From Nitrospirota bacterium (GTDB taxonomy: Bacteria; Nitrospirota; Thermodesulfovibrionia; UBA6902): 64,000 bases of DNA. The notes below the pieces were generated by a model. That model ran no database searches. It was not told where the DNA came from and saw only the letters and a list, made by a program, of their open reading frames with translations. This document shows positions 26,999 to 43,906 of this stretch, piece by piece. Each line of letters opens with the position of its first letter. The stretch's first letter is position 1. The position numbers and the translations under genes were made by a program. The DNA lies in contig JACRHD010000065.1 in the NCBI GenBank assembly GCA_016234115.1, positions 1 to 64,000 of the forward strand, given 5' to 3'.

Positions 26999-27691
26999 TC
27001 ATCCCCCTGTCTTTAACCCCACGCCCATTCCGAGCAGGTAATGCGCCATCGGGTAAAAGCCGGTATGGACGATTTCATCGTTCATGGAAAAAATAAAGAC
27101 ATTATGGAAATACCCCGACAGGAGGTCCAGGAGCTCATCCGCGTTTTTGAGGTTGATATGGCCCGCAGCGCTGGCCGGGGTCGCGTATCTCTGCGCCTCT
27201 TTGTTCGGAGTGCCTATTATGCACACGGCATGGGGCGTCAGAGAGCTGCATATGTTTGTCATCAGGCGGTCTTCGGCTTCAGCCGGGACATGCTCTATAA
27301 CATCGAGCGAATAAGCGGCGTCATATATTCCGGACAGAGGACTTTGAGTAATGTCATGGACCGCGAAGCTGCACCGCCGGACGCCTTCGGCAGACAGGCG
27401 GGCCTTTGCGTCTTCTAAAACGAGGGGTTCAAAATCGATCCCCAGCACCGACCCTACCGTCTGCAAAACCACCGTGGTCCCGAACGCATCGCCGCACCCG
27501 ATTTCCACCACCGTTGACTTGCCGGCAAGCATCTTTGCGCAAAATTTATATCTCGCCAGCATAAAACCGAGGTGCCTCGGGTCACTCCTCCAGATGTGGC
27601 TTGACCATGGGCCGAGACGCACCGGTCCGTCTTCAGCGTAAGTATCTATCTGCTCCTGGTTCTGAGGCTCCTTTGTTCTGGCTGCTATCAT
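26999..27691 (-). CDS. Class I SAM-dependent methyltransferase
   Basis: A 230-residue methyltransferase with motif I VVEIGCGDAFGTTVV, the acidic strand VLGIDFEPL, and AAYSLDVIEHVP. The ATG overlaps the stop of the transketolase C-subunit gene by 4 bases, so the products work together. Likely modifies the sugar made by the upstream enzymes; the methylated atom is unknown. Confidence 0.85.
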   Translation of the reverse strand: MIAARTKEPQNQEQIDTYAEDGPVRLGPWSSHIWRSDPRHLGFMLARYKFCAKMLAGKSTVVEIGCGDAFGTTVVLQTVGSVLGIDFEPLVLEDAKARLSAEGVRRCSFAVHDITQSPLSGIYDAAYSLDVIEHVPAEAEDRLMTNICSSLTPHAVCIIGTPNKEAQRYATPASAAGHINLKNADELLDLLSGYFHNVFIFSMNDEIVHTGFYPMAHYLLGMGVGLKTGG

Positions 27692-28644
27692 ACCCTCACC
27701 TCTTCTTTTCGAGGCCCGACACCTAAATCCGTCAGGACTTTGCTTACAATGCCTTCCGGAGTAAATCCGAGCCGCTCACAATGTTCTCTGTAAGATCCGT
27801 ACTCCGTGACAAACCTGTCGGGTATGGATAAAGAGGAATACCTGACATTGCCGATGTCCGCGGTGGCGCGCAGCACATCGTCACCGAGCCCTCCGCTGCG
27901 CATATGCTCCTCTATCACCAGGACCCGTCCCGTCTTTTGCACGCTGTCGCGGACCAGTTTTGTGTCCAGGGGACGAATGGTATGGATGTATATGACTTCA
28001 GCACTCAATCCTATGTCATGCAGTTTGTCCAGCGCATCCAGCGCATTTCTAAGCTGAGGGCCTGTAGCGATAATGGTCAGATCGCTTCCGGATAAGACCT
28101 TTATCCCTTTGCCAAGTTGAATGTCCCCCGAGTCAAACCCGTATCCGTGCTGGACTCCGGGCAAACGGAACAATGTAAGCTTTTTATTCTGATATGTCTG
28201 CCGGAACAACAGATCGAACTCGGGAGGACTCCCGGGATAAATAATCTCCGTATTCTGGAGTGTCTTAAGAAGCGCAAAGTCCCCATAGCAATGATGGGTG
28301 CAGCCGAGGTTCGAATAATCAAAAGCGCTCCCGACCGTCACCAGGGTCCCGCCGAACTGCTGGTAGCAGAAATCGAGCTTGATCTGCTCGAACGCCCTTT
28401 CAATAATAAACGGCGCGATGGTGTGGGCCACAGGATGGAATCCGGTTTTCGACAGGCCCGCAGCCATGCTGATAATCGTAGGTTCACAGATGCCGATGTT
28501 GTAATATCTCCCTGGACAGGCCTCTGCAAAGGGCTGCAGCGCAAAATGACTTATATCGCCTACGAGTACTACCAGGTCCGGGTCGTCAATGCCCACATCG
28601 ACCAGGGTATCCACAAACTGCTGTCTCATCGATTTTTCACTCAT
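27688..28644 (-). CDS. Transketolase-like C-terminal subunit (first TPP pair)
   Basis: A C-terminal-type transketolase half of about 318 residues from the ATG at 28644 (MSEKSMRQQF), which has GGAG upstream and overlaps the N-subunit stop by 4 bases. It has the pyrimidine-binding domain with the catalytic Glu in NIGICEPTIISMAAGLSK and the C-terminal transketolase domain (LSAEVIYIHTIRPLD, VLVIEEHMRSGGLG). Split transketolases in sugar clusters transfer two-carbon units. A role in building a branched or longer sugar is inferred. Confidence 0.88.
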   Translation of the reverse strand: MSEKSMRQQFVDTLVDVGIDDPDLVVLVGDISHFALQPFAEACPGRYYNIGICEPTIISMAAGLSKTGFHPVAHTIAPFIIERAFEQIKLDFCYQQFGGTLVTVGSAFDYSNLGCTHHCYGDFALLKTLQNTEIIYPGSPPEFDLLFRQTYQNKKLTLFRLPGVQHGYGFDSGDIQLGKGIKVLSGSDLTIIATGPQLRNALDALDKLHDIGLSAEVIYIHTIRPLDTKLVRDSVQKTGRVLVIEEHMRSGGLGDDVLRATADIGNVRYSSLSIPDRFVTEYGSYREHCERLGFTPEGIVSKVLTDLGVGPRKEEVRV

Positions 28645-29414
28645 GCCAGCGCCTCCATGATCTTCCCGACTTCTTCTTCGTTCGGTATCCTGTGGTGCCA
28701 CGGGCCGTGACCTTCGAGCATGGGCACGCCCTTGCCTTTTACAGTCCTTGCAATGATGGCGGCCGGCATTCCATGGCAGTCGAAATCGACGTTGCCCAAC
28801 GCATTACATATTTCCTCTTCAGAGTGGCCGTCAATTACTGTTGTCTTCCAGCCGAAGGCGCGCCACTTGCCCGGCATGTCGTCACGCGGCATAAGCTGCG
28901 CTGCGGAGCCGTTCCAGTCCACGATTACACAGAGATTGCCTAACTGAAGATTGTTCGCGACATTCGCCGCCTCCCATATGGTCCCTTCATGACATTCCCC
29001 ATCACCCACCAGGACACATACCCTGTTGCTCATTCCGCGAAGACGCAGGCCGAGCGCGATCCCTACAGCAAACGGCAGACCGTGACCCAGGGAACCGGTA
29101 GACGCCTCAGCGCCCGGGACCTTCGTGCAGTCGGGATGCTCGCCTAATATGCCTTCCTTTTTACAGAAAAGCTCCAGGTCATTTCGAGTAATTATCCCGT
29201 ATCTCTCAAGCACTACATACAGGGCAAGGCAGCCGTGCCCTTTGCTTAAAACAAAATAATCCCTTCCGTCCCATTTGGGATCCCGCGGATCGTACTTCAG
29301 AAAATTTTTATATAGCGCCTGTATAATGTCGACAATCGAAAAAGCGCTTGGGATATGACCGTCCCTGCCCCTGCATACCATCTCAACAATTCTCTTCCTC
29401 AAATCTTCATTCAT
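28641..29414 (-). CDS. Transketolase-like N-terminal subunit (first TPP pair)
   Basis: A TPP-binding half of about 257 residues, partner of the C-subunit that follows. TPP and magnesium motif: VLVGDGECHEGTIWEAA followed by VIVDWNGSA. Substrate-facing motifs LSKGHGCLALY and TGSLGHGLPFA are intact. The ATG at 29414 has AAGGACGG upstream; an upstream extension to 29528 would run into a sigma-54-like promoter. This is the first gene of the first sugar operon unit, together with the methyltransferases and radical SAM enzymes downstream. Confidence 0.88.
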   Translation of the reverse strand: MNEDLRKRIVEMVCRGRDGHIPSAFSIVDIIQALYKNFLKYDPRDPKWDGRDYFVLSKGHGCLALYVVLERYGIITRNDLELFCKKEGILGEHPDCTKVPGAEASTGSLGHGLPFAVGIALGLRLRGMSNRVCVLVGDGECHEGTIWEAANVANNLQLGNLCVIVDWNGSAAQLMPRDDMPGKWRAFGWKTTVIDGHSEEEICNALGNVDFDCHGMPAAIIARTVKGKGVPMLEGHGPWHHRIPNEEEVGKIMEALA

Positions 29415-29498
29415 ATTAACCGTCCTTTGAGTGTTGCGTTTTTCCCCGCGAACTAAACTGAAATCAGACAGGTCTAGTTCAAATTGCTTATTTAAAAA

Positions 29499-29513
29499 GC
29501 AAAACATGTGCCA
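29499..29513 (-). promoter_or_regulatory. Sigma-54-like promoter before first transketolase pair
   Basis: Minus-strand TGGCACATGTTTTGC, preceded by T and followed by T, matches the RpoN -24/-12 consensus with the exact 10-base spacing between GG and GC. It lies 85 bases from the transketolase N-subunit start at 29414. Confidence 0.7.
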
Positions 29514-29707
29514 AACCAGGACATTCACGGCAAGACATTGATTTCAGCATTATTTTTCATAAAATATCATGCTGTTACATCTTTCCCTCGTTCAAACGGC
29601 GCTTTCAAATGTTCCTCTCATTCAGTAACGGACCGCTCAGGACGTCAAATAATATGTAGTATTGGTTCATAATATTGACGTAAGTTGCTCGAAGGGCCGT
29701 GATTTCA

Positions 29708-30484
29708 CTACGTAAAAAATCCCTTCCCCTGTCCCCCGTCAATAGGCACAATCGAGCCTACAAAAAATGAGGCATTCTCCGAGCAAAGAAACGCCACGGC
29801 ATTCCCTATTTCATCCGGCTCGCCGAAACGTTTTATCGCCATCCGGTCTTCCAGGTATTTCCTGACATGCTCAGGCCGTTCTCTGGACGCAGTGTCCCAA
29901 TAGCCGCCATCCGTAAAGACCGCTCCCGGCAATACGGCTGTCACTATGACACCATCAGAAGCAAGTACCCGTCCGATGCTTCTTGCATAGGCGGTCAGGG
30001 CGGCCTTTATTGAACAATAGGGTACCGGACCCTGATTCTCCATTGATGCAATAGACGAGATGTGAACGATTCTGCCCCATTTCCTCTCTTGCATGGCCGG
30101 CGTAAGCAGCAGGTTCAGTTCAACGGCAACTTCCAGATTGAAGCGCCAGACCCTTCTCCAGTCTTCGACTGAACAGAAGGGATCAGATATGTTCAGAGTG
30201 CCTCCCAGATTATGAACTATTATATCGACCGGACCGAAGCCGGCATTTTTCATGTCATCTACCAGCTTCGATGGAGCGCCATCGTTCACCAGGTCCAGGG
30301 CAACGCCGTAATGACCGGCCGATTTTCCGCCCATTTCCCGGACAAGCGCATCAACATCGGAGGGGGTCCTTGATACAACGGCCACACTAGCTCCCTCTCT
30401 TGCCAGGCAAGCGGCGACAGATCTGCCGAGACCGCGCCCGGCGCCGGTTACCAAAGCCCTTTTTCCTTTAATGCCGAGTTCCAT
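29708..30484 (-). CDS. Short-chain dehydrogenase/reductase
   Basis: A classical SDR of about 258 residues. Cofactor motif LVTGAGRGLGRS; conserved NLGGT; catalytic Ser in VHISSIAS; active-site YCSIK; C-terminal FFVGSIVPIDGGQG. I chose ATG at 30484 (GGAGG upstream). The frame continues to 30520 and would overlap the upstream methyltransferase gene. It probably reduces a keto-sugar or related intermediate of this pathway. The gap to the next operon holds a sigma-54-like promoter, so this may be the last gene of its operon. Confidence 0.87.
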   Translation of the reverse strand: MELGIKGKRALVTGAGRGLGRSVAACLAREGASVAVVSRTPSDVDALVREMGGKSAGHYGVALDLVNDGAPSKLVDDMKNAGFGPVDIIVHNLGGTLNISDPFCSVEDWRRVWRFNLEVAVELNLLLTPAMQERKWGRIVHISSIASMENQGPVPYCSIKAALTAYARSIGRVLASDGVIVTAVLPGAVFTDGGYWDTASRERPEHVRKYLEDRMAIKRFGEPDEIGNAVAFLCSENASFFVGSIVPIDGGQGKGFFT

Positions 30485-30516
30485 ATTGCAGTCCTCCAGT
30501 AAAAGACTTCGCTGAT

Positions 30517-31758
30517 TCACATAATGTGAAATGGATATATAACGTTCCCGGGGCGCCGATCGAGCAACTTGCCTAAAATAGGCTTTACGCTGTCGACCGC
30601 AGTGATTATTACAGTAGCATCCGTAATGTCCACGAAATGGTCCGGATGGCGGATTACAACAGGCAGGTTCCAGTAATATATGCCGTCCCTCGAGGGGTCG
30701 TCATCCATGACCGCCGTGAGCATGGAGAGATCGTTCCCGAGATGATAAGAAAGAACGGACAGCATCTGGGCCGCTCCGTACCCGTAAACAGTCGTATTGC
30801 GAAACGATTCCAGCACTTCGTTTGAAGCCGACATTTGCCGGCGAAAGATATCATACCGTCTCCGGATTGCGGACATGTTAAATACTTCAGGTACATCTCC
30901 ACAGCACTTCACTTCTCCGGTCCTCCTCTTCCTGAAGGCCACAAGCAGCGTTCCCCAGTTGTGATGGTTCTGCCGGTGAGAAATATACTCCCCTCCGGCT
31001 TCTTCCAATAATTTCCTGAAGGAGTGAATCGTAAAGTACTGGAGGTGCTGATGAAATACCTGGTCGAACCTCATTCTGCGCATCAGTGTCTCGAAACCCG
31101 GCACCTCGAACAGGAACAGGGCTTCATCATCCGCAGCATCGAGCAGTTTCCCCAAGACCTCTGCGGGCTCATGAATATGCTCGAGCGTATGCCTGCTCAA
31201 TATCAGGTCGGGCAGGGGTTTTAGTGAGCCGAGATCAACATCCTCGATTACGTCGCCTATTACATCGATGCTCATATCGTCCCTCTGTTCCTCACGGGAC
31301 GCCCATAAGGGGTCTATCCCCACACGGGCGCCGGCCTTCTCCTTCAACTGCTTCAGCAAATGTAAATCGTTGCAGCCGAGATCGAGTATGCATTTGAACC
31401 TCCTCCCGGGCGCAAGCGACTCCAGAACAGAGAGAAAGAAGTCCGTACCCTGGCGTGATGACGCGCTCGCCGAAGTCCGGAAATTATAGTTTGCTCCATA
31501 GAGGAACCCGGGATCGACCTGGTCGGCAAGCTGCGCATGCCCGCATCCGCAGCAAACAAGCAATTGCTGGTCTATCCCACCCACAGGGCCGCTCATCGGT
31601 TTGTCCGAATACTTGTCGGTCAGCGGCAGGCCGGGTAAATCTATGACCGGTTCAAGCCCGTTATCCCCGCAGACCGCGCAGCGTGAGCGCCGGGACACCA
31701 CGACAGATTCAAAATCGTGCCGGTTGTTTTCAACTACGCCTGCAATACCTTTTTTCAT
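30517..31758 (-). CDS. NDP-sugar C-methyltransferase-like protein
   Basis: A 413-residue three-part protein of the sugar C-methyltransferase family (TylC3/EvaC-like). An N-terminal zinc-binding domain has Cys pairs (RCAVCGDNGL, VCCGCGHAQL). The central SAM domain has ILDLGCNDLHLL and ILSRHTLEHIHEP. The C-terminal domain contains VYGYGAAQMLSVLSYH and FHIM at the end, as in enzymes that methylate a 4-keto-sugar carbon. Expected product is a C-methyl deoxy sugar. The zinc ligands and His motif are present. Confidence 0.88.
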   Translation of the reverse strand: MKKGIAGVVENNRHDFESVVVSRRSRCAVCGDNGLEPVIDLPGLPLTDKYSDKPMSGPVGGIDQQLLVCCGCGHAQLADQVDPGFLYGANYNFRTSASASSRQGTDFFLSVLESLAPGRRFKCILDLGCNDLHLLKQLKEKAGARVGIDPLWASREEQRDDMSIDVIGDVIEDVDLGSLKPLPDLILSRHTLEHIHEPAEVLGKLLDAADDEALFLFEVPGFETLMRRMRFDQVFHQHLQYFTIHSFRKLLEEAGGEYISHRQNHHNWGTLLVAFRKRRTGEVKCCGDVPEVFNMSAIRRRYDIFRRQMSASNEVLESFRNTTVYGYGAAQMLSVLSYHLGNDLSMLTAVMDDDPSRDGIYYWNLPVVIRHPDHFVDITDATVIITAVDSVKPILGKLLDRRPGNVIYPFHIM

Positions 31759-31771
31759 GCTGTCTCCCTAA

Positions 31772-32659
31772 TCATCTCGCTACGCATCCCGGAACGCCTT
31801 TCATATTCAATTCACTCATCAGCGCCAGGCCGCTTTCCAGCTCGGTAAATTTAAAACCGGTCCGCTCCCGCACCCTGACGGAATTCAGGGTATTGTTCAG
31901 GGGACGTTTCTCCGCGAAATCAAAATCGGATATCGAACACCTTTCAACCAGTTCAGCCGGGAAGCCGAAAAATCCGGCCACACGCTTCCCCATCTCGTAA
32001 CGGGTAAACGAATTCACGGCGCTTAAATGAAAAACCCCGGTCATGGACCGGCCGATCAGTATCTCAAGAACAGAGGGTATGTCCTCCGCCAAAGTCGGAC
32101 ATATGAACTGATCGTCCGCGCACTTTACGGGTCGTGAACCTGCAAAAGATTCGATGATATTACGTATCGGAGACGTGTCGTCCTCTGCCGGGCTGTAGAG
32201 CTTGCTCATTCGCAGGACAAGGAACTCATCGCAATTGCTCATTATGAAATCTTCCACTGCCTTCTTCTGAAGTCCGTATTCGGTCGTGGGCCTGCGGACA
32301 TCTTCTTCCCGATAATTGCCGCCCTCTCCATCGAAGACAAGGTCGGAGGAAAAAAATACCGGAGTGATTCCGTATTCACGCATTATACGGACAAGCCTGA
32401 TCGTATCAGTCACGTTGAAGCTCCAGGTGGAGCTGCGCTCGCGTTTGCACCGGTCGATGTTGGTTATGGAGTTGCAGATAATTCCATACCTCACCAGCCC
32501 GGCTATTTCGGGAAAGAAATCAAAACAGGCGCTGTTGAGATCAAAATGAAAATCCGCGCCGCCTTTGTGAGAAGCCGAAAGCACGTCATGACCTTTACTC
32601 CTGAAGTGACTTACAATCCTCTTTCCCAGAAACCCATTGGCCCCGAAGACCAGCATCAT
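31772..32659 (-). CDS. RmlD-like NAD(P)-dependent sugar reductase
   Basis: A reductase of about 295 residues of the extended SDR/RmlD type. The N-terminal motif is LVFGANGFLGKRIV. Residues SSDLVFDGEGGNY match the RmlD-type catalytic stretch, with YGLQKKAVE supplying the Tyr-Lys pair. I chose ATG at 32659 behind AGGAG; the longer frame to 32752 would overlap the upstream gene. Likely reduces a 4-keto deoxy sugar, linked to the C-methyltransferase downstream. Confidence 0.83.
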   Translation of the reverse strand: MMLVFGANGFLGKRIVSHFRSKGHDVLSASHKGGADFHFDLNSACFDFFPEIAGLVRYGIICNSITNIDRCKRERSSTWSFNVTDTIRLVRIMREYGITPVFFSSDLVFDGEGGNYREEDVRRPTTEYGLQKKAVEDFIMSNCDEFLVLRMSKLYSPAEDDTSPIRNIIESFAGSRPVKCADDQFICPTLAEDIPSVLEILIGRSMTGVFHLSAVNSFTRYEMGKRVAGFFGFPAELVERCSISDFDFAEKRPLNNTLNSVRVRERTGFKFTELESGLALMSELNMKGVPGCVAR

Positions 32660-32669
32660 CCGTTTTCTC

Positions 32670-34265
32670 CTATGAAATACACGGAAGCGTCTGTGTATAT
32701 GCATCCCGTTCAGAATGGTTGCAGATATCTTTAAAGGAAAGTGGGCCGTCATATTCCGGGAAGAAGTGATAAAACATGTCCCTCGAATATTGCCGGACCG
32801 CGTCTAATTCCTCTGTGGTGATCCCGACCATGCGCGCATACTTTTCACGCTTCTCGCCGGAGGTAAAATTTATTCGGTCCCAGTCGAATGTCCTTATAAT
32901 CCCCATCTCCAGTTCGCTGAATTCCGGGGTGTGGTACAAGCCGACCGTCCTCTTTATTATCCTGTTTATCTTGTCCGCGTCGTGAAGCATCTTCCCTTCA
33001 GTGACCTGCTTCATCAGCCTCGTGCCGGCCATCGGGGTAGCAATCGAAAAAATGCTGTAATCGACCTCGGGGTGGTCTTCAGCAAAACGGACGGTATCGA
33101 GGATTTCACTCCTTGTCTCGCCCGGCATCCCGACGACATACATCCCTATGATTTCCAGGCCGAGTTTCCGGCTCCACTGAATAACATCGTGATTGTGCCC
33201 GACGCTGGTCGGCTTGCGGACCACTTCTTTAAGGACACGGTCGCTGCCGGATTCCAGCGGACATATGATACGGTACATACCCGTCTCGGCCATGGCCGCA
33301 AGGGCATCATGAGTCAACGGTTTCATTGGCATGCCCTGCGCGACAAACCAGGGAAAACTGAGGTTGCGCCGCTTCAATTCATTTGTAAACTCGAGGATCT
33401 GCCCTTCGTTTTCCGCAAACAGGTCATCAAAAAAATGTATCTCCTCCATCCCTTCATTGAGCGCGGCCTCTATTTCGGTCATCACCATACTAAGGGGCTT
33501 CCTTCTGTATCTCTGCTTTTCACCCCTGAGATGAGATACGCAGCAAAACAGACATCTTTGAACACAGCCTCGGGATGTCATTATGTCGCGATACCTGCGG
33601 CTCTTCTCCGGATATCTTATCTTGCCGTATTCCGGCATTTCATAGTATCGCTGTTTTTGCTCGTCGGTTATCAGTTGATACGCCGGAAGCGGCAGCGCCC
33701 CAAGATCAACCGCCGGATAAAGAGGCGACGTATGCAGAGCGCCGTCCGGCCTGCGCGCTGCGACGCCGGCAATGGCCTCCACATCGGTCCCTGCATTCAG
33801 CGCCGAAAGGAGCTCACCTGCCGCAAAATCGACTTCTCCCTTTATGGAGTAGTCACATGCCCCGTCCTGCACGGCTTTACCGTCATTGTTTGTGGCGTGA
33901 CAGCCGGTCAATACGGTAATGCATCCCGGGTTTACCTGCCGCGCCATCTGAAATACACGGCCTCCATCCCAGTCATGCGATGTAGCAAACGTAAGGATCG
34001 ATTGCACCATCACTACGGCATCAGGCCTGAACTGTTTCATTTTCACGAGCAGATGCTCAAACTCTCCCGTCCTGTAAGTTCCGAGGTCCAGAAACTGAAC
34101 ATCAAAACCTCTTCCGAGGAGGTCCGCGGCCACAACCATCGGTTCCACGGGCGACACCAACCGGTAGGATTCGAAATCGGGCCGGTTAATATTGTCTGTG
34201 TACGCTTCGCGCCTGACTAACGGCGGTACGACTATTAAAACGGAGCTGATTTTATTTTTCCCCAT
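32670..34265 (-). CDS. B12-binding radical SAM protein
   Basis: A 531-residue protein like the one at 24033, but clearly divergent. The N-terminal cobalamin-like domain has VLIVVPPLVRREAYT, DVQFLDLGTY and AVVMVQSILTF. The radical SAM motif is SRGCVQRCLFCCVSHLRG, followed by IHFFDDLFAEN. Both proteins end with a similar WDRINFTSGEKREKYA-like stretch, so they belong to one subfamily. It lies between two sugar dehydratase/reductase-type genes. Reaction unknown. Confidence 0.87.
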   Translation of the reverse strand: MGKNKISSVLIVVPPLVRREAYTDNINRPDFESYRLVSPVEPMVVAADLLGRGFDVQFLDLGTYRTGEFEHLLVKMKQFRPDAVVMVQSILTFATSHDWDGGRVFQMARQVNPGCITVLTGCHATNNDGKAVQDGACDYSIKGEVDFAAGELLSALNAGTDVEAIAGVAARRPDGALHTSPLYPAVDLGALPLPAYQLITDEQKQRYYEMPEYGKIRYPEKSRRYRDIMTSRGCVQRCLFCCVSHLRGEKQRYRRKPLSMVMTEIEAALNEGMEEIHFFDDLFAENEGQILEFTNELKRRNLSFPWFVAQGMPMKPLTHDALAAMAETGMYRIICPLESGSDRVLKEVVRKPTSVGHNHDVIQWSRKLGLEIIGMYVVGMPGETRSEILDTVRFAEDHPEVDYSIFSIATPMAGTRLMKQVTEGKMLHDADKINRIIKRTVGLYHTPEFSELEMGIIRTFDWDRINFTSGEKREKYARMVGITTEELDAVRQYSRDMFYHFFPEYDGPLSFKDICNHSERDAYTQTLPCIS

Positions 34266-34293: not shown

Positions 34294-35292
34294 CTAAGGT
34301 TTGTGTACATATTCCAGGGGTTCTTTCTGAATTTCTCCCCAGTTATTATTTATCCAGTCAACGACCCCCGATACGCCCTCATCATACGGAATATGCGGCC
34401 CCCATCCTAATTCCTTTCTTGCCTTTGAAGAATCTATTACATAAGCTGCATCCTGACCCAGCCTTTCCTCAACTATTCTTGTAGCGTCTTTAAAATCCAC
34501 ACCCATCTCCCCACAGATATTTTGTACGACGTCTTTTACCGCTATGCCCTCATCCGGAGACAGGTGGTATATTTCCCCTGTGCGCCCTCTCTCCATGGCG
34601 GCCAGCTCTCCTCTTGAGACATCCCTGATATGAATATACGACTTGACCGAATTGCCTCCGCCGTGGAGCTCAATGGTCTTTCCGAGTTTGATGTAAATAA
34701 CCGATCTCGGGATTATCTTGAATAACTGCTGGCGTGCGCCGTATACATTTGTAGAGCGGACCATGACCAGAGGGAAATTGAAATTCTTCACGAACGTAAA
34801 GAGTGACAGATCACCCGCCGCCTTTGAGGCCGCATACGGCGTACTGGGATTATAAGGGGCGTCTTCTCTGACCCTGCCTTCACATGTCCCGTAGACTTCG
34901 GGTGAAGAGATATGCACATAACGCTTCAGGAATTTACGGTCTTTCAGCGCGTCGGCCAGAGTGGTCATGGAGACCGCGTTTGTCTGAAACCACTGCGCGG
35001 GATTCTTCCAGCTCGGGGCCACCTCGCTCTGAGCGGCGAAATTTACTACATAATCAGGTTCAAAGGAATCGATTACGCCGATCAGCCGGTCCATGTCCCT
35101 GTTTAAGTCCAATTGATAAAATTCAAAGTCCGGCTGATTGTGCCGCTTGTACGGCAGGAACAATGCGCCCTTTTCCGGCGACCGGCTGACGCCGGCCACA
35201 GAATAGCCTCCTTTTTCAAGCAGCAGATCAATAAAATCGCTGCCCGAAAAAGAGTTGCTTCCTATCACCATCACCCTTGCCTTGCCTGCCAA
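34294..35292 (-). CDS. NDP-sugar 4,6-dehydratase-like SDR
   Basis: A 332-residue extended SDR. Cofactor loop VIGSNSFSGSDF is an atypical Gly pattern. VNFAAQSEVAPSWKNP, HISSPEVYGTC and YAASK match GDP-mannose 4,6-dehydratase and RmlB patterns. The Glu after SSP corresponds to the catalytic Glu in TSELYG, and Tyr-Lys is present. It therefore probably makes a 4-keto-6-deoxy sugar; the nucleotide carrier is not certain. It lies upstream of the B12 radical SAM gene in one operon and downstream of an inverted repeat. Confidence 0.8.
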   Translation of the reverse strand: MAGKARVMVIGSNSFSGSDFIDLLLEKGGYSVAGVSRSPEKGALFLPYKRHNQPDFEFYQLDLNRDMDRLIGVIDSFEPDYVVNFAAQSEVAPSWKNPAQWFQTNAVSMTTLADALKDRKFLKRYVHISSPEVYGTCEGRVREDAPYNPSTPYAASKAAGDLSLFTFVKNFNFPLVMVRSTNVYGARQQLFKIIPRSVIYIKLGKTIELHGGGNSVKSYIHIRDVSRGELAAMERGRTGEIYHLSPDEGIAVKDVVQNICGEMGVDFKDATRIVEERLGQDAAYVIDSSKARKELGWGPHIPYDEGVSGVVDWINNNWGEIQKEPLEYVHKP

Positions 35293-36466: not shown

Positions 36467-37444
36467 TCAGTTCAGTTCTCCGGCATAGACGTCTGAGAAC
36501 ATGTCCTCCACTTCAGGAAACGGACTTCGCGCCGCGAATTCAACCGCTTCAGCGATCTCCCGCTGAATTTTCAGCCTGAACTCACCGGCCTGTCCCGCGC
36601 TCATGACGCCTTCTTTTATTAATTTGTTTTCAAAGGACTCTACCGGGCACCGCTTGCGCCACTCAAGGAATTCCTCTTCCTTCCTGTACCCGAGGCTGTT
36701 ATCGTAATTCGGCCCGCAGTGTTCGCGCCAGCGGTAGGTATCGAATTCCAGATAGTAAGGGCCGGAGCCCCCCCTCGCATATGAGACTGCTTTTTCAGCG
36801 AGACCGTATACATCGAGGACGTTGTTGCCGTCGCCCTTTGCTCCGCTGATTCCATATGCGGCTGCGATTGCCAGGTTGTCCCTGTCCCGGGGCTGGCGGC
36901 AGGAGAGAGGCGAATAAACCGAGAAAAAATTGTTTTCACATACGAACACGACCGGCAGCTTCTTTAAGGCCGCGAAATTCAGGCTCTCCGTAAAAACGCC
37001 TTCTTCGGACGCCGCGTCACCGAAGAAAACGACCGTCACGCTGTCTTCTCCCTTCATGGAAGCGGCAAAAGATACCCCCGTTGCGACGGGGATAATGCCG
37101 CCGACAATCGGCGTGGCGCCGAGGAAATTTACCGACAGGTCGGAAAGGTGCATGGAACCGCCTTTGCCTCCGGAGCAGCCCGTGGACTTGCCGTAGATTT
37201 CGGCAAGCATTGTCTTCAGGTCGCCGCCCTTCGACAGATAATGCCCGTGTGACCTGTGGTTGCTCAGGACGAAATCATCCTTTCCCAGCCCTGCGCATAT
37301 GCCGGCTGAGATGGCCTCCTGCCCGATACAGAGATGGACCGGGCAGCGCATCTGCTGTTCGTGATAAAGCTCAGCAACGGTTTCTTCAACCATCCGGACC
37401 CGGAGCATGTCGTAATATAATGAAATCAGCGTATCTCTGTTCAT
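36467..37444 (-). CDS. TPP enzyme E1 alpha-like subunit (second TPP pair)
   Basis: A 325-residue E1-alpha homolog. TPP motif: FFGDAASEEGVFTESLNFAA and VFVCENNFF. Other conserved patches are HLCIGQEAISAGIC, HRSHGHYLSKGG and GKSTGCSGGKGGSMHL. The ATG has AGGAAAA upstream. Together with the beta subunit it forms a TPP-dependent 2-oxo-acid decarboxylating unit, here inside a nucleotide-sugar operon; donor is probably pyruvate or a similar acid. Confidence 0.9.
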   Translation of the reverse strand: MNRDTLISLYYDMLRVRMVEETVAELYHEQQMRCPVHLCIGQEAISAGICAGLGKDDFVLSNHRSHGHYLSKGGDLKTMLAEIYGKSTGCSGGKGGSMHLSDLSVNFLGATPIVGGIIPVATGVSFAASMKGEDSVTVVFFGDAASEEGVFTESLNFAALKKLPVVFVCENNFFSVYSPLSCRQPRDRDNLAIAAAYGISGAKGDGNNVLDVYGLAEKAVSYARGGSGPYYLEFDTYRWREHCGPNYDNSLGYRKEEEFLEWRKRCPVESFENKLIKEGVMSAGQAGEFRLKIQREIAEAVEFAARSPFPEVEDMFSDVYAGELN

Positions 37445-37461
37445 TCTTTTCCTCGTCTCAA

Positions 37462-38460
37462 TCAGAGCACAGACAGCGTCATCTCCTCATCGCCTGTCTT
37501 GTCCTCTTTGTATTCAATCCTTTCGTTCAATTTTTTTACTGTTGCTATTGTCTCGTCCAGATCGACATATAACATGCAAAACTGTTCGTTCTTGCATGTC
37601 GTCGCACTGCAAGGCATTAAGGGACACTTGACTGATGATGAAATCTTGAAATACCTTCCATACGTGTAGACTTCACTGTCACTTGTTGATCCGAACAAGG
37701 CTATCACCTTCTTCTTAAAACCCAGCGCAAGATGCAGCCCGAGGCTGTCCGTCGATATTATTATTCTGTTTGAATAAATCCAGTCCATATATTCATGCAA
37801 ATCATCGAAGCCCTGCTGCCATGAAACCTTATAGCCCTGTGCCGTCAACCTTTTTTCCAGTTCATGCCATTTTTCCATAGGCATGGCTTTTGTCGGCCAT
37901 TTGGACCCTACCTTGTAATTAAATCCTATATCATATACTTCTTCAGTCTTAGGCTTGTAACCTATGATATATTCCTGTTCCTTCCATTCAACGTTCAGCA
38001 TCTCCACAAGGACCTTCTGCCAGCAATCCGTGATCTTGTTGCCGTTCTGCTTTGAGGTTATGTAATCAATAAATTTCTGGCCGTGTTCATATGCATGGTA
38101 CACGCCTTCATTACTGTCGAACCGGAACCCGTATTTCGTCCACGAATCTATCATGTCCGTCAGGGCGCAAAGTCCGGGGATCTTTTCAAGGTTTATGAGC
38201 ACGTCAAACCTTTCTTTCATGAGCTGAAAAGGGACAAACTGGTCCCATACCAGAATCCTGTCGACGAGTTTATTGCCGTGAAGCAGCGGCTTCGCCTGTT
38301 CAGCAAGCAGCCAGGTAATGTGCGAATCGGGATATTTTTCTTTCAGCGCCCACAAAATACAGGTAGTCCTTACAACATCTCCCAGACTCGGAACTATTCC
38401 GATTTCAGGGTCCAGGGTCTCCGAAAAACCGATTTTAATCACGAGGATCTTTGTTTTCAT
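37462..38460 (-). CDS. GT9 heptosyltransferase-like glycosyltransferase
   Basis: A family 9 glycosyltransferase of about 332 residues. N-terminus ILVIKIGFSETLDPE, then GDVVRTTCILWALKEKYPD; C-terminal donor half RIIISTDSLGLHLALGFKKKVIALFGST and a Cys-rich end (KCPLMPCSATTCKNEQFC). I took ATG at 38460, behind GAGG; a TTG lies two codons upstream. Unlike the 603-residue GT9, there is no C-terminal extension. It sits between two radical SAM genes and the E1 pair, and may transfer a heptose-derived sugar. Confidence 0.87.
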   Translation of the reverse strand: MKTKILVIKIGFSETLDPEIGIVPSLGDVVRTTCILWALKEKYPDSHITWLLAEQAKPLLHGNKLVDRILVWDQFVPFQLMKERFDVLINLEKIPGLCALTDMIDSWTKYGFRFDSNEGVYHAYEHGQKFIDYITSKQNGNKITDCWQKVLVEMLNVEWKEQEYIIGYKPKTEEVYDIGFNYKVGSKWPTKAMPMEKWHELEKRLTAQGYKVSWQQGFDDLHEYMDWIYSNRIIISTDSLGLHLALGFKKKVIALFGSTSDSEVYTYGRYFKISSSVKCPLMPCSATTCKNEQFCMLYVDLDETIATVKKLNERIEYKEDKTGDEEMTLSVL

Positions 38461-38469
38461 AATCAAACC

Positions 38470-39537
38470 TCAAATAAAATTTAAATGCCTGACCGACGGT
38501 TTTTTTATTTCCCATAAAAATTCATTGACCGCATGCGGCCTGCAATTGGGGGGACAACACGCGGCGTCGAGATTGTTCTCTATATGTTTCTTTATCGCCT
38601 TTCTCTTCTTTCCGCACCATATCTCCCTGAAACTGTTCCGGTATATATTGCCGAAAACAAAATCCTCCCTGTCCCAGTAAGGGAGGCAGCTCGCTATGTC
38701 TCCCGCTGAATTCAGCGCTGAAATAAATGAGGTGCCGAAACAGCGCGCATACTTCCTTTCCCCGTATTTACCGAATGCCTCTCTCCTTGCGATGACCCTG
38801 AATTTATCGTCGGAAAGGCCTTCAGATGCATTAAGCGCCCTGTTTATTTCCGTTGCCGGCATCTTCCCGTTCATCCTGTAAGATTGCCGCATGCTCTGTT
38901 GCACGAAGGGCTTGATCGCCAGGTAATCGATGCCCGCGTCCTTCAGCGTCCTGACGGCGCCGGGGAGAAATTTTATATTCTCGGGCAGCAAAACGTATTG
39001 GGCCCCTATGTCCACCCCGAGTTTTTTTCTATGTTTGAGGTTCGCCGCCGTCTCTATGTTCTTCACCACCCTGTCGAACACCGCCGGTTTTACTCCATGG
39101 ATCAGCGAGTAATTGTCCCTCGTGCCCCCGTTGAAACTGAAACGTATGAACGTCAGAAAAGGCAATATCTTTTCGGAAAGCTCTCTCTTCAGTAACTGTC
39201 CGTTGCTGAATACCCCGGCATCAATGCCGTTTTCCCATGAATGGCGTATGAAATGCTCTATGTCGGGATGCAAAAGAGGTTCGCCCTCACCTGCGAAAAG
39301 AACGCTCCTGACTCCACAGCCGGCCGCCTCTTCTATGAATTTCAGGAGACGTCCTGTTTCGAGCTTCCTGTCGGGGTAGCCTATAAAATCATACGCGCAG
39401 AATATGCACCTGTGACAGCATTTCCCCATCGGGCTTATCTCCATATACATCGGGAACGAGTCGCCTTTCTCAAGATACTCGTTTACCCTGCCCGGATGAT
39501 ACATGAGTTTATGACCGTCAAATATGTAGTTTTTCAT
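38470..39537 (-). CDS. Radical SAM protein
   Basis: A 355-residue radical SAM protein with the Cys motif KCCHRCIFCAYDF and FAGEGEPLLHPDIEHFI. A C-terminal Cys set (CLPYWD, ENNLDAACCPPNC) suggests an auxiliary cluster of the SPASM/twitch type. The start lies 20 bases inside the gene upstream, so the two radical SAM proteins are translationally coupled and may act as a pair. Substrate unknown. Confidence 0.84.
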   Translation of the reverse strand: MKNYIFDGHKLMYHPGRVNEYLEKGDSFPMYMEISPMGKCCHRCIFCAYDFIGYPDRKLETGRLLKFIEEAAGCGVRSVLFAGEGEPLLHPDIEHFIRHSWENGIDAGVFSNGQLLKRELSEKILPFLTFIRFSFNGGTRDNYSLIHGVKPAVFDRVVKNIETAANLKHRKKLGVDIGAQYVLLPENIKFLPGAVRTLKDAGIDYLAIKPFVQQSMRQSYRMNGKMPATEINRALNASEGLSDDKFRVIARREAFGKYGERKYARCFGTSFISALNSAGDIASCLPYWDREDFVFGNIYRNSFREIWCGKKRKAIKKHIENNLDAACCPPNCRPHAVNEFLWEIKKPSVRHLNFI

Positions 39538-40465
39538 TTTCCTCGTATAAGCGTCCGGGCATTGAAGACGCCGCGTCGGCTTCAGCGAGTTCCCTGACGT
39601 TTCTGATCTCCACTGTCGTATGGCCGAATATCTGGAACCTGTTCGTCTTCACCTTTACATCGCACGGGTTACAGTCTCCGTAAGACGAGCAGGCCCTGAA
39701 TTTCTCTATCGAGCTTTCACTGAAATCCTCATCCAGTATATGCGCGATCGGCTCTCTCCCTTTGTACAGATCGGCATGACACCTGAAGACATACCCGCCC
39801 GGGTCCGCGATAATCTCAGTCGTTCTGCAGTCGCAGGCCTTCAGTTGATTCCCGCATACCGAGCCTTCATACTTGAACGTGCCGTGGAGGTCCGACTCCC
39901 ATTCGCCCAGGAATTCCTTGGTCCTGAAATCTATCCCAAGCTTCAGGCATCTCTCCTTCACTTCGTGGATGTGGTTTATAATCGATGGATGCTCTATGCC
40001 GTAGATTCCGACCCTGAACCCAGCGTCCTGAAGCCTGTATGTCTTCCCGATCAGCTCTTCAATATCGTTTTGTCCCGGATGATAACTTACCCTTATAGAA
40101 GCATAGGGTGCCTCCCTCGTAAATCTACTGACCGGGACCTGCCGTATGAACTCTTCCGTGTCAAAAGACATGTTTGTCAGAAGGTCCATCTTGATATCTT
40201 CCCTGACTTCCCTGACAAATCTGTAAAACCCCTTGTAGAAAGTCGACTCGCCCCCCTGAATTGTCAGAGGCAAATCGTCCCTTAAGACCAGCCTGTCGGC
40301 GGCCTTTATCCATTCATCAGGTCCTAAATGCTTCCCCCTCGCCCTTTCATATCTCGACCCCCCGTTATGAAGATTTATACAGTAGGGGCATCGCAGGTTG
40401 CAGTTCAGCGTCAGAAAAAAAGCGACATAGTTATGATGTTCCAGCGGCCTAATATCTTTTGACAT
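39518..40465 (-). CDS. Radical SAM protein, coupled to next gene
   Basis: A 315-residue radical SAM protein. The Cys motif is FLTLNCNLRCPYCINLHNGG, followed by TIQGGESTFYKGF. Further Cys in SVCGNQLKACDCRT, FRCHADLYKG and CSSYGDCNPCDVK could bind an auxiliary cluster. The ATG has AGGAG upstream. It overlaps the downstream gene by 20 bases. First gene of the unit reaching to the E1 pair, 92 bases downstream of a sigma-54-like site. Reaction unknown. Confidence 0.84.
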   Translation of the reverse strand: MSKDIRPLEHHNYVAFFLTLNCNLRCPYCINLHNGGSRYERARGKHLGPDEWIKAADRLVLRDDLPLTIQGGESTFYKGFYRFVREVREDIKMDLLTNMSFDTEEFIRQVPVSRFTREAPYASIRVSYHPGQNDIEELIGKTYRLQDAGFRVGIYGIEHPSIINHIHEVKERCLKLGIDFRTKEFLGEWESDLHGTFKYEGSVCGNQLKACDCRTTEIIADPGGYVFRCHADLYKGREPIAHILDEDFSESSIEKFRACSSYGDCNPCDVKVKTNRFQIFGHTTVEIRNVRELAEADAASSMPGRLYEENEKLHI

Positions 40466-40793: not shown

Positions 40794-40801
40794 AAATTCA
40801 A

Positions 40802-40942
40802 TCACACTATCGGCGTTCCAATACCAACATTACCGGACCAATCAATGGTTAGTCGGTTGTACCTGGCAAACGTTGGCATGTACTGAGCCTGAACAATAAA
40901 TTTACCATCACTTGAATGAAGCGCAGTTTGCGTAACGATAAT
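40802..40942 (-). pseudogene. C-terminal remnant of a surface protein
   Basis: Between two stops the minus strand encodes 46 residues ending with YNRLTIDWSGNVGIGTPIV and a TGA. The RLTID.SGNVGIGT pattern is typical for the ends of long phage-fibre-like or surface proteins, the same broad type as the gene at 1-1478. There is no start codon with a ribosome site and no upstream domain. It is therefore a leftover from a lost gene, immediately downstream of a glycosyltransferase gene. Confidence 0.6.
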
Positions 40943-40957
40943 TTACAGAGTAGCGCT

Positions 40958-42034
40958 CTAAGCAGAATTCCTGCTGACATCGTGCAGCCCCCACTTTTTC
41001 CCGAGCCTGATCAGGTCGGACAGGAATTTCAGATAGTGCGCCTTTTCGCTCTTCTTGCTTAACTCATAATGGACTATAACACTGGTCGGACAATAGACAT
41101 TCCTGTAGCCGGCCTGCTGGACCCTGTAACCGATATCGGTGTCTACACAGTAATGCTCAAACTGCTCATCCACGAGGCCGATCTTTTCAAAACATTCTCT
41201 CTTCATCATCGGGAAAAAACCGTAGTCACATTCCCGCGGGACCTGAAACTCCGGGAAACCGGCAATCGACTTGCCTATGACGCGGGAATCGTCAATAAAA
41301 GGGACCTTGCCGATCCAGTCATGATATTCACTCCAGTATGAATTATGATGTCCGACCGACTGCGGAGCCCCGTCAGGATATACAACCAGCGAAACGCCCG
41401 CCCCCGCGGAGCCGTCATCGTCAATGGTAACCGCTACAGACAAATCCCAGCCCGGCATGACCTCGACGTCGTCATTCAAAAGGCACACATAATCACCCTT
41501 CGCGATGGAGAAACCCATATTGATGCACTTGTTGATCCCTGCATGGGTCTCGTTTATTATTGCGATGGTGTCGCTCTTCAGGCCTTCCTGCCGCAAATAC
41601 TCTGTCGTTCCGTCACCGGAGGGATCGCCAATGACGATTATCTCTACGGGATAGAAGCTGTGGTCTCTTATACTCCTGATACACCTCTGCAAATCCTGAC
41701 ACCGGTTGTAGGTAGGGATAATGATAGAGAACGTATGCGGTCTTATATCTCTGAATTTCCCGGCATTAATATGCGTCAGGTTTTTGTGAGCGCTCCTGAG
41801 GAGAGGGTCGGCAAAGATCGCCCGTTTCAAAAGTCCTTCCGCTTTTTCAATGTCGCCCGCTGAAAAACTCAACACCCCGAGGTCATTGAAGACTTGCGCC
41901 CTTAACAGATTGTTGCCCGGGCCCTCGATCAGGACTTTATCATAAAGCCTTAAGGCCTCTCCCACACGGCCTCTTTCAGCCAGGGCCAGGGCCTCTTCAT
42001 ATGTCGCGATTACGCCCGATGAAATCTCTTCCAT
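40958..42034 (-). CDS. TPR-GT2 glycosyltransferase
   Basis: A 358-residue protein. Residues about 8-90 form TPR-like helices (ALALAERGRVGEALRLYDKV). Residues about 100-320 are a family 2 glycosyltransferase: FSIIIPTYNRCQDLQRCIRS, IVIGDPSGDGTTEYL, YVCLLNDDVEVMPGWD and VDEQFEHYCVDTDIGYRVQQAG. The DDD-type metal motif and the ED-like base are present. The upstream spacer contains a hairpin and heptamers, so it may be a separate unit from the transketolase genes. Donor is likely a nucleotide sugar made nearby. Confidence 0.86.
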   Translation of the reverse strand: MEEISSGVIATYEEALALAERGRVGEALRLYDKVLIEGPGNNLLRAQVFNDLGVLSFSAGDIEKAEGLLKRAIFADPLLRSAHKNLTHINAGKFRDIRPHTFSIIIPTYNRCQDLQRCIRSIRDHSFYPVEIIVIGDPSGDGTTEYLRQEGLKSDTIAIINETHAGINKCINMGFSIAKGDYVCLLNDDVEVMPGWDLSVAVTIDDDGSAGAGVSLVVYPDGAPQSVGHHNSYWSEYHDWIGKVPFIDDSRVIGKSIAGFPEFQVPRECDYGFFPMMKRECFEKIGLVDEQFEHYCVDTDIGYRVQQAGYRNVYCPTSVIVHYELSKKSEKAHYLKFLSDLIRLGKKWGLHDVSRNSA

Positions 42035-42053
42035 TCAACCTGTCTCAGCTAAT

Positions 42054-42075
42054 CCCTCTCCCTTGACGGAGAGGG
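42054..42075. terminator. Hairpin between transketolase and GT2 genes
   Basis: CCCTCTCC and GGAGAGGG form a perfect 8-base stem with a 6-base loop just downstream of the transketolase C-subunit gene, next to the heptamer array. It could terminate or stabilise the sugar operon transcript; no T-run is visible. Confidence 0.5.
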
Positions 42076-42082
42076 TAAGCAA

Positions 42083-42117
42083 CTAACACTTAACTCCTGA
42101 CTCATAACTCTTAACTC
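42083..42117. repeat. Heptamer array, TTAACTC type
   Basis: Five 7-base units (CTAACAC, TTAACTC, CTGACTC, ATAACTC, TTAACTC) lie between the transketolase C-subunit stop (42121) and the GT2 gene. Same period as the arrays at 35319 and 61689. Confidence 0.8.
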
Positions 42118-42120
42118 TTC

Positions 42121-43077
42121 TTACCCAAGGCTGCAAAGAGATTCAACTGACAAATACTCGGCTATGTCCTTGGCGAGGCTGCCCTTATCCACTCCGTAAT
42201 ATCCCCTTATCACTTCTCTTCCACCGTATTTATAGCAATACAGTTTATCGGTCGATAACCCGAGGCGCCTGACGCGGAGGGGGATGTTGTAATCATTCAG
42301 GACTTCACAGACCGCGCTTCCCAGGCCTCCCGGCAGGAAGTGCTCTTCAAGGCTTATCAGCTTCTTTACATTTCTGACTTTTTCCGCAAGGGCGTCGCCG
42401 TTTATGGGAATGTTATAAACATCTATCACGCCGGCATTGATATTTCTTCCCTCAAGATCACGCGCAAGCTCCAGGGCGGTATGTGTCATGCTCCCAGTGG
42501 AAATTATGTAACAATCATCGCTCTCCCTCAGTATGGACAACCCTTCGGTGAAATCCGAGCCTTCATGATATACATCGGGTAATATCTGCCTGTCCAGCCG
42601 GATATAATTAGTCGTCTTCAGGTGGTAAGAAATATCCGCGAAAGCGGAAGCCATGACACTGTCCGTTATACTGTGTATCTGAATTCTCGGCATGGACCTC
42701 ATAATCGCGATATCCTCAATAATGTGATGCGTGGGACCCGAGTCTTCATAACCGAACCCCGCGCCGACGCCCACGATTGTGACCGGTATATCCATTATGG
42801 CGTTTTCAACCCTGATCTGCTCGAGACACCTCAGGGTTATAAAGGGAGCGATGGCATAGACAAAAACCTTCTTCCCTGCGAGGCGGAGACCCGCGGCTAT
42901 GGTTATCGCGTTCTGCTCCGCGATACCGACATTGACAAATTGCGAGGGCATGTCCCTCCTGAATTTATCAAGGGCCGGCGCTCCCATGTCAGCGGATATG
43001 ACCACAACTTCCGTGTCCTTTCTCGCTATCTCGTACACCCTGTTCCAAAAAGCGTCTCTCTGTGAAATATTATTCAT
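42121..43077 (-). CDS. Transketolase-like C-terminal subunit (third TPP pair)
   Basis: A 318-residue C-terminal transketolase half. Catalytic Glu in VNVGIAEQNAITIAAGLRLAG; GYEDSGPTHHIIEDIA; C-terminal ISLEEHFLPGGLGSAV. It overlaps the N-subunit gene by 8 bases. It is a paralog of the C-subunit at 27688 but clearly diverged. Two transketolase pairs in one locus suggest different acceptors. Two-carbon transfer to a sugar is inferred. Confidence 0.88.
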   Translation of the reverse strand: MNNISQRDAFWNRVYEIARKDTEVVVISADMGAPALDKFRRDMPSQFVNVGIAEQNAITIAAGLRLAGKKVFVYAIAPFITLRCLEQIRVENAIMDIPVTIVGVGAGFGYEDSGPTHHIIEDIAIMRSMPRIQIHSITDSVMASAFADISYHLKTTNYIRLDRQILPDVYHEGSDFTEGLSILRESDDCYIISTGSMTHTALELARDLEGRNINAGVIDVYNIPINGDALAEKVRNVKKLISLEEHFLPGGLGSAVCEVLNDYNIPLRVRRLGLSTDKLYCYKYGGREVIRGYYGVDKGSLAKDIAEYLSVESLCSLG

Positions 43078-43906
43078 TGCCGCAGCTCCTTTCCAGACAT
43101 AATCTTGCCGTTTCGGCCTCTTCCCCTTTCGGAGAAATTCCGTGCCATACCGGGTTGTTCGTAATACATTCGACTCCCTCGCCTTTTACAGTGTCGGCGA
43201 TAATCACAAGCGGCCTGTTCGCCCTCCTGGATCTCAAATTACTTAAGGAATCGACCAGGCATTCTATCGAATGCCCGTTTATCCGCAGCACGTCCCATCC
43301 AAAGGACTTCCATTTATCTTCCATAGGCTCCAGCGCGATCAGGTTTTCCGTAAAATCCGTGACGCACAGATAATTCCTGTCGACTATCGCTATGAGATTG
43401 TTTAACCTGTTATGAGCAGCAAACATCGCGGTCTCCCAGATGGAACCCTCGTAACATTCTCCGTCGCCGAGGAGTGTAAATACCAGGTAGAGGTTCCTGT
43501 TCATTTTCGCCCCCAAAGCGATGCCCGCCGCCACCCCGAAACCCTGACCCAATGAACCGGATGTTATCTCGACACCAGGCACGTCGTGCTGCAGATGGAC
43601 GCCGAAGCTGCCGTCCTTTTGCGCAAACTTATTCAGTTTTTCGGGGTCGAAAAAGCCGGTATCCGCAAGGACGGTGTAAAGGGCCGGACTCGCCTGACCT
43701 TTACTGAGGATAAACCTGTCCCGTTCGTCCCAGTCCGGGTTTGCGGGGTCGTATTTCATAATTCGTCCGTGATACAGTGCGACAAGGATATCTATGCACG
43801 ACAATGATGACGTCACATGACCGGTCCCCGCCCTTATGCACATCTCCAGCATTGTCTTCCTTATCTCGTTTGACTTCTTCTTAAGTTCTCCGGCCGAAAC
43901 CTTCAT
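43070..43906 (-). CDS. Transketolase-like N-terminal subunit (third TPP pair)
   Basis: A 278-residue TPP-binding half: LLGDGECYEGSIWETAMFAA and VDRNYL form the TPP/Mg motif; FILSKGQASPALY and SGSLGQGFGVAAG are conserved. ATG has AGGAGATG upstream. It is a diverged paralog of the N-subunit at 28641. Located directly after a B12 radical SAM gene. Confidence 0.88.
   Translation of the reverse strand: MKVSAGELKKKSNEIRKTMLEMCIRAGTGHVTSSLSCIDILVALYHGRIMKYDPANPDWDERDRFILSKGQASPALYTVLADTGFFDPEKLNKFAQKDGSFGVHLQHDVPGVEITSGSLGQGFGVAAGIALGAKMNRNLYLVFTLLGDGECYEGSIWETAMFAAHNRLNNLIAIVDRNYLCVTDFTENLIALEPMEDKWKSFGWDVLRINGHSIECLVDSLSNLRSRRANRPLVIIADTVKGEGVECITNNPVWHGISPKGEEAETARLCLERSCGNE

Follow-up and report, generated by a model that had tools for sequence, protein, structure and literature searches.

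A Nitrospirota flagellar island with three two-subunit thiamine diphosphate enzymes, predicted to build C2-branched higher sugars

The 64-kb window analysed here (the whole stretch, positions 1 to 64,000 of contig JACRHD010000065.1 from a Nitrospirota bacterium) contains a sugar-biosynthesis island set amongst flagellar genes, in which there are three separate two-subunit enzymes of the thiamine diphosphate (ThDP) class: two split transketolases, TK1 and TK2, and one pair of the pyruvate dehydrogenase (PDH) E1 type. An earlier note on this DNA had described the three pairs together with a C-methyltransferase, a short-chain dehydrogenase/reductase (SDR) resembling 4,6-dehydratases, a ColD-type 3-dehydratase and B12 radical S-adenosylmethionine (SAM) enzymes. 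These companions are present, as are all six open reading frames of the pairs, which lie on the minus strand and have Pfam domains that agree. Our analysis indicates that the probable products of the island are nucleotide-activated higher sugars with C2 branches, destined for flagellin, the chemistry being a prediction from the genes. The proposal of a branched deoxy sugar made by specialised ThDP pairs thus stands in that C2-branched deoxy sugars are the most probable products, but the set does not obviously make a single sugar, since at least two separable modules are present: module H, a heptose module with TK2, and module P, with the E1 pair and TK1.

TK1 comprises an N subunit (28641–29528, with a probable start at the ATG at 29414, which matches the homologues; Pfam Transketolase_N) and a C subunit (27688–28701; Transket_pyr and Transketolase_C). 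TK2 likewise comprises an N subunit, the ThDP-binding half (43070–43906; Transketolase_N), and a C subunit (42121–43077; Transket_pyr and Transketolase_C). The genes for the two TK1 subunits share 61 nt (28641–28701), and a like overlap of 58 nt is found in genome G038 (L093). The nearest solved structure for the transketolase pairs is the split transketolase 6yak/6yaj. Some conserved residues of transketolase serve the ThDP chemistry, and others the sugar-phosphate or acceptor end of the active site. In the numbering of E. coli TktA, the alignment shows that TK1 and TK2 retain H26, H100, H261, the GDG motif, E411 and H473. However, S385, F434, H461, D469 and R520 are replaced by F, I, G, L and G in TK1, and the first four of these by P, I, G and S in TK2, which keeps R520 and has Q at H66; the S385 column moves between alignments, while those of H461 and F434 are stable. 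The housekeeping split transketolase of the same genome retains all the residues compared, including S385, F434, H461, D469, H473 and R520. Because the catalytic and ThDP residues are kept while S385, F434, H461 and D469 are replaced, TK1 and TK2 appear, as judged from sequence, to keep the residues that form and stabilise dihydroxyethyl-ThDP whilst having a remodelled sugar-phosphate end.

In a tree of transketolase pairs from about 100 relatives, TK1, TK2 and other sugar-cluster transketolases form one clade apart from the housekeeping transketolases (FastTree support 1.00; IQ-TREE ultrafast bootstrap 100), our phylogenies being built without AviB1/B2, Pau11/12, KbDH and miharamycin transketolase sequences. 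In the IQ-TREE result the island-type clade also takes in one Sinorhizobium plasmid transketolase, and one from Streptomyces clavuligerus is nested inside it. A primary-metabolism origin of all three pairs, the outcome against which the earlier note had proposed a phylogenetic check, is excluded by the trees, which place them apart from housekeeping transketolases and E1s, and by the separate housekeeping copies in the genome. TK1 is rare, occurring in 3 of 396 Nitrospirota genomes, and TK2 proper in 4 of the same 396. As in the miharamycin type, both are split transketolases inside sugar clusters with a keto-forming enzyme. Other members of the clade have settings of their own. A split pair on a Streptomyces clavuligerus plasmid (L244:11257–12900) lies near a gene with a nonribosomal peptide synthetase condensation domain, with H461 replaced by G and F434 retained. 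Another island-type cassette, with the signature E-I-G-D-H, is found in L238 (Azospirillum sp. TSA2s plasmid p2), L110, L058 and L051; in L238 a GDP-mannose 4,6-dehydratase, an SDR and a small protein are followed by the N and C subunits, and L110 has similar SDR neighbours.

The neighbours of TK2 point to its probable acceptor. Module H contains a GHMP-family, HddA-like heptose kinase (48476–49465; GHMP Pfam domains; best NCBIfam match HddA at 153 bits, below cut-off; 80% identity to a copy beside fliS in G008) and an HddC-like sugar-1-phosphate nucleotidyltransferase (46718–47446; NTP_transferase; HddC at 133 bits, below cut-off). Between them is an SDR (47453–48400) whose sole PDB match at E<1e-25 is 6vo6/6vo8 (389 bits over 303 residues), which we take to be the Campylobacter GDP-heptose C4-dehydrogenase Cj1427, a name that the PDB title does not give. 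There follow a ColD-like 3-dehydratase of the DegT family, dependent on pyridoxamine phosphate (45448–46701; 454 bits to ColD, 2gms), one B12-binding radical SAM enzyme (43943–45451), which adjoins TK2 in relatives too, and then TK2 itself. The ColD-like enzyme has a His (FYSHHIST) at the position of the aminotransferase Lys, as do 7 of 7 relatives aligned. Cj1427 together with a C3-dehydratase has been found to convert GDP-heptose to GDP-3-deoxy-4-keto-heptose in vitro (PMC10680097). The Cj1427-like and ColD-like genes thus indicate a GDP-heptose pathway, and not a hexose one, for the TK2 module.

In modules with HddA, HddC, Cj1427, ColD and B12 radical SAM genes, the ThDP pair is a transketolase in the window, G008, G002 and G400, and an E1 pair in L158, L191 and L209. 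A test of this slot used the Cj1427-like protein, not the ThDP enzymes, as anchor: 81 of the 396 Nitrospirota genomes searched were positive, and 20 loci were read, each from a different genome, some on contigs that end close by. A transketolase pair lay within 2 kb in nine of the 20; within 4 kb there was an E1 pair in three and a divergent compact E1 pair in two, and one further locus had a distant transketolase. Allowing as much as a 3% chance at each locus, a rough binomial estimate gives ∼2e-9 for the nine transketolase matches. Since an E1 pair replaces TK2 in the module H of relatives, a 3-deoxy-4-keto-heptose is probably the common acceptor to which the two enzymes pass a C2 unit.

In a second sample, of 15 loci from the large family f29, nine had an AspC-like pyridoxal phosphate (PLP) enzyme, recognised by eye from sequence; a compact E1 occurred in three, a transketolase in two and an E1 in one. 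That a ThDP enzyme invariably fills the TK2 slot is therefore rejected, AspC-like enzymes occupying it in these genomes. With AspC-like, transketolase and E1 occupants, the slot would thus handle a keto-heptose in several ways, transketolase and E1 being two of them. The AspC-like enzyme, of class I and ∼406 aa, has HddC on one side and the B12 radical SAM gene on the other in flagellar loci of this family (L269–L271, L273, L276–L278, L280 and L282). The compact E1-like pair (∼200 and 210 aa), in which GDG has become GEM, is seen in the heptose module at L260:5976–7167, and also in L261, L272, L274 and L281.

The E1-type pair of the window consists of an alpha subunit (36467–37444; Pfam E1_dh) with the loop TYRWREHCGPN, typical of a sugar-cluster E1 family, and a beta subunit (35406–36464; Transket_pyr and Transketolase_C) in which the catalytic Glu and His are kept; the ThDP residues of the pair are also intact. 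The C-terminal tail of the beta subunit, DVPDKAFTGPF, has no counterpart in Bacillus PDH E1 beta. The nearest solved structure for the pair is a heterotetrameric PDH E1. Members of the family have an EHCGP or HVGP loop after the TYRW motif and a beta tail of ∼30 residues, which ends in GPF in those printed and commonly reads DVPDxxFTGPF. No catalytic His is missing from the alpha-subunit loop: the relevant residue, H242, which corresponds to the His preceding the first phosphorylation serine in human E1 alpha, does not vary in alignment A1. The alpha subunit sits inside the family in the tree and the Nitrospirota housekeeping E1s outside it; two Streptomyces E1s (L154 and L189) also fall within, in a tree built without AviB, Pau11/12 and KbDH.

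The family is found in at least 80 loci, in Acidobacteria, Chloroflexi, Cyanobacteria, Verrucomicrobia, Proteobacteria, Omnitrophota, Streptomyces and others. In 80 of these loci, read with flanks of up to 10 kb, no AceF- or Lpd-like (E2 or E3) gene was among the matches listed, and the commonest neighbours were nucleotide-sugar SDRs, DegT-family enzymes, methyltransferases and radical SAM genes. No E2 or E3 gene was present among the annotated genes of the 64-kb window either, as had been remarked before. A role for the pair as a component of a PDH complex is ruled out by this absence from the window and the 80 related loci, and by the extra beta tail. In these respects the pair matches the alphaKADH2 group (PMC12247030).

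The E1 pair and TK1 belong together in module P, a set comprising a 4,6-dehydratase-like SDR, E1 alpha, E1 beta, a C-methyltransferase, a FabG-like SDR and the two TK1 subunits, often with a methyltransferase and a Zn-alcohol dehydrogenase. The set was present in 5 of the 5 TK1 loci found, in three phyla (the window, G038, G400, Methylococcaceae L157 and Verrucomicrobia L118), with some variation in order; L157 and L118 were retrieved by an E1 search, so that these two are a biased sample for the linkage, and G038 and G400 were retrieved with TK1. In the window, the 4,6-dehydratase-like SDR (34294–35292; SSPEVYG...YAASK; 205 bits to the dTDP-glucose 4,6-dehydratase model, below cut-off; PDB 6bi4) is followed by a B12-binding radical SAM enzyme (32670–34265; 60% identity to that of the G400 island), an RmlD-like reductase (31772–32752), the protein of sugar C-methyltransferase type (30517–31758; Methyltransf_13/23 and a weak Methyltransf_14 match), which in relatives lies beside both the E1 pair and TK1, and the FabG-like SDR, a candidate ketoreductase (29708–30520). 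A methyltransferase adjoins TK1 on the other side (26999–27691; 60–61% in G038 and G400).

The island is a run of genes on the minus strand, with motA/B (3744–5362) on one side and fliS, fliD, flaG, flagellin, fliW, flgL, flgK and flgN on the other, so that the flagellar setting proposed for it is borne out by the genes alongside. The same is true of the distant Nitrospirota genome G400, from another family outside the class of the window, where all three pairs lie between flgL/fliW and fliC. There, MotA/B, FlgG-L and FliW are followed by Cj1427-like, HddC, HddA, ColD-like and B12 radical SAM genes and a TK2-like pair; then by the E1 pair, SDR46, the C-methyltransferase, FabG, TK1, a first methyltransferase, a B12 radical SAM enzyme (60% identity), RmlD, a radical SAM enzyme with tetratricopeptide repeats (TPR), a second methyltransferase and an alcohol dehydrogenase; and finally by glycosyltransferases, including a Maf-like one, and FliC, FlaG, FliD and FliS. 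Because a second lineage has the same island, and because its neighbourhoods recur across genomes, the three-pair island is a conserved flagellar locus and not a local accident. Indeed, module H is next to flgL/fliW in several f29 genomes, and a different transketolase subfamily is combined with an E1 in other flagellar islands (G005 L095; G009 L096). The locus has the make-up of a flagellin-glycosylation island, with fliS, fliD and flagellin accompanied by glycosyltransferases, although the Maf-like match is weak (37 bits). Gene position suggests that flagellin carries the product.

The pathway we infer, in its substrates, donors, order of steps, nucleotide and transfer to flagellin, would run as follows. 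In module H, the HddA-like kinase would phosphorylate heptose 7-phosphate and the HddC-like enzyme would activate it with a nucleotide; the Cj1427-like enzyme would then oxidise at C4 and the ColD-like enzyme dehydrate at C3, giving a 3-deoxy-4-keto-heptose. TK2 is predicted to add a hydroxyacetyl (C2) unit to the C4 ketone of GDP-3-deoxy-4-keto-heptose, yielding a branched nonose; hydroxypyruvate is one candidate transketolase donor. In module P, the 4,6-dehydratase-like SDR would make a 4-keto-6-deoxy sugar, onto which the E1 pair, having decarboxylated pyruvate, may add an acetyl branch without a lipoyl E2. An SDR would reduce the product, the C-methyltransferase would add a methyl group, and TK1 may add a hydroxyacetyl unit to a ketone, either of this intermediate or of a parallel one.

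Several observations weigh against this pathway. Standard transketolase donors are sugar phosphates, whereas the phosphate pocket of TK1 and TK2 is altered; R520 is retained in TK2. In 5 of the 20 Cj1427-anchored loci no ThDP pair was found (some contigs in the sample end close by), and in many f29 Nitrospirota the TK2 slot is filled by the AspC-like enzyme instead. GmhA homologues are present but fall under the curated cut-off, and several modules of this kind lie away from flagellar genes (G038, G095). The last point bears on the alternative that C2-branched sugars are made, but for a lipopolysaccharide O-antigen, exopolysaccharide or other surface glycan, the flagellar position being incidental. 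Relatives of both modules outside flagellar loci (G038, L157, L118 and the Azospirillum plasmid) would fit such a role, as would the GT9-type transferases of the island. Yet the island occupies one strand between the flagellin genes and motA/B and has a Maf-like transferase, a module lies beside flgL/fliW in G400 and several f29 genomes, and no Wzx/Wzy-type match was obtained among the island genes scanned, and so we regard this alternative as unlikely.

The altered pocket also counts against the suggestion that the transketolase pairs are dedicated precursor enzymes, making sedoheptulose 7-phosphate or an octulose phosphate for the heptose pathway. Module H does start at heptose 7-phosphate, which is derived from the transketolase product sedoheptulose 7-phosphate, and HddA/HddC-like genes lie beside TK2. 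However, the residues that bind sugar phosphate in the E. coli enzyme are gone from TK1 and TK2, the genome already has housekeeping transketolases, TK2 can be replaced by E1 pairs, which are unable to make sedoheptulose 7-phosphate, and the TK1 module is without a heptose kinase in L157 and L118; a precursor role is thus quite improbable. Finally, the product of the E1 pair and transketolases might be a small building block (acyl or ketol), used for instance in N- or O-acyl decoration, and not a ring branch. That an AspC-like enzyme can fill the TK2 slot, which is therefore not strictly for carbon–carbon ligation, is compatible with this, but no match to an acyl-CoA or carrier-protein partner was obtained, and the ThDP pairs have enzymes for 4-keto formation and 3-dehydration as neighbours, like YerE in yersiniose biosynthesis. 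We consider the building-block explanation very unlikely, and C2 branching of nucleotide-activated sugars for flagellin the better account of the island.

Several known systems come close to the island. The island E1 resembles the alphaKADH2, or AviB1-AviB2-type, pairs of avilamycin, paulomycin, aldgamycin and kibdelomycin in being a two-subunit PDH E1-like enzyme in a sugar cluster without E2 or E3. Those pairs are proposed or shown to place an acetyl branch from pyruvate onto a keto sugar (PMC12247030, PMC4753412), and acetyl transfer to ketones has been demonstrated in vitro for one alphaKADH2 member (PMC12247030). The island E1 differs in its surface or flagellar glycan setting, its relatives in many phyla and its pairing with split transketolases. 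The miharamycin and amipurimycin transketolases are also split-gene enzymes in sugar pathways; hydroxyacetyl transfer to a ketone is proposed for them, none having been assayed, and a 2025 review counts 13 such transketolases, all from Streptomycetes (PMC12247030). By comparison, the island type occurs in glycan clusters of Nitrospirota, Methylococcaceae, Verrucomicrobia and Azospirillum, where its neighbours are defined, and its active site carries a signature. The housekeeping split transketolase (PDB 6yaj/6yak; C11) shares the N/C division and the ThDP and catalytic residues, whereas the island enzymes have lost phosphate or acceptor residues, form a separate clade and are linked to sugar-nucleotide genes.

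Module H has C4-dehydrogenase and 3-dehydratase homologues in common with the Cj1427 and ColD pathways (heptose, colitose). In the Campylobacter pathways, epimerases and reductases act next and there is no ThDP enzyme (PMC10680097), whereas the module H ketone is a predicted C2 acceptor. In the yersiniose pathway, a 3-dehydratase is likewise followed by ThDP-dependent C2 transfer to a C4 ketone. YerE moves an acetyl group onto a 3,6-dideoxy-4-keto hexose, however, and TK2 is predicted to move hydroxyacetyl onto a keto-heptose; moreover, YerE, a flavoenzyme of the decarboxylase superfamily, has a single chain and acts on a CDP-hexose, and the island has split transketolase or E1 pairs for a predicted GDP-heptose. 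E1-type branching is thus of a known kind, and ketone-accepting split transketolases are of a proposed kind, with candidates now well beyond Streptomycetes. The earlier note knew of no flagellar pathway with three such pairs. Because E1-type pairs are widespread in bacterial glycan clusters, the novelty is confined to the split transketolases and the three-pair combination. In the openly available literature, no direct account was found of a split transketolase in a flagellin or O-antigen cluster.

Beyond modules H and P, the island contains a GT9-type glycosyltransferase (37462–38466), a radical SAM/SPASM protein (38470–39537), a radical SAM protein with 70–77% identity to copies in other flagellar or transketolase/E1 islands (39518–40465) and a GT2 glycosyltransferase fused to TPR (40958–42034), all on the minus strand. 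TPR are also fused to a radical SAM/SPASM enzyme (25487–26989). Further along the same strand are a B12 radical SAM enzyme (24033–25580), whose top NCBIfam match, the Sden_1168 P-methyltransferase family, scored 216 bits and did not reach the cut-off of 575; a methyltransferase and a Zn-alcohol dehydrogenase (22261–24003), both of which accompany many sugar-cluster E1 pairs; and a glycosyltransferase block (7201–20425) that includes the protein with the weak Maf N-terminal match (9059–10858). On the other side are the minus-strand flagellar genes (49857–59956), with flagellin at 55161–56021 and, between two fliS paralogues, a fused methyltransferase-GT4 protein (50419–52734), which G008 also has. 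The GC content is 0.49–0.52 across most of the island, against 0.44–0.46 across the neighbouring flagellin genes, a contrast that fits acquisition of the sugar genes from another organism without proving it. The source assembly is of 3.5 Mb and 97% complete, and its housekeeping ThDP enzymes lie elsewhere in the genome: the split transketolase (C11), a 616-aa transketolase (C59), a fused E1 (C46) and a 649-aa protein (C21), probably DXS.

The island-type transketolase clade is larger than the Streptomycete set and mostly non-Streptomyces, and with it come a defined module, a signature of residues and an acceptor that Campylobacter enzymes can already produce in vitro (PMC10680097). That transketolase and E1 replace each other within one heptose module is independent evidence, from genomes, for the same kind of step, and the two-subunit E1 finding counters the view that Gram-negatives form acetyl branches with single-chain YerE and not with two-subunit enzymes (PMC4753412). 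More tentatively, it is quite possible that a split transketolase family has been re-tuned to ketone-accepting sugar branching, that Nitrospirota make 4-C-hydroxyacetyl heptoses (nonoses), and that these, with the E1 pair and the second transketolase, form part of a flagellar glycan with multiple C2 branches, a chemistry and sugar class not previously described. The question of whether transketolases accept ketones becomes directly testable and, if the pathway is correct, branched higher sugars would join the flagellar glycobiology of the Nitrospirota.

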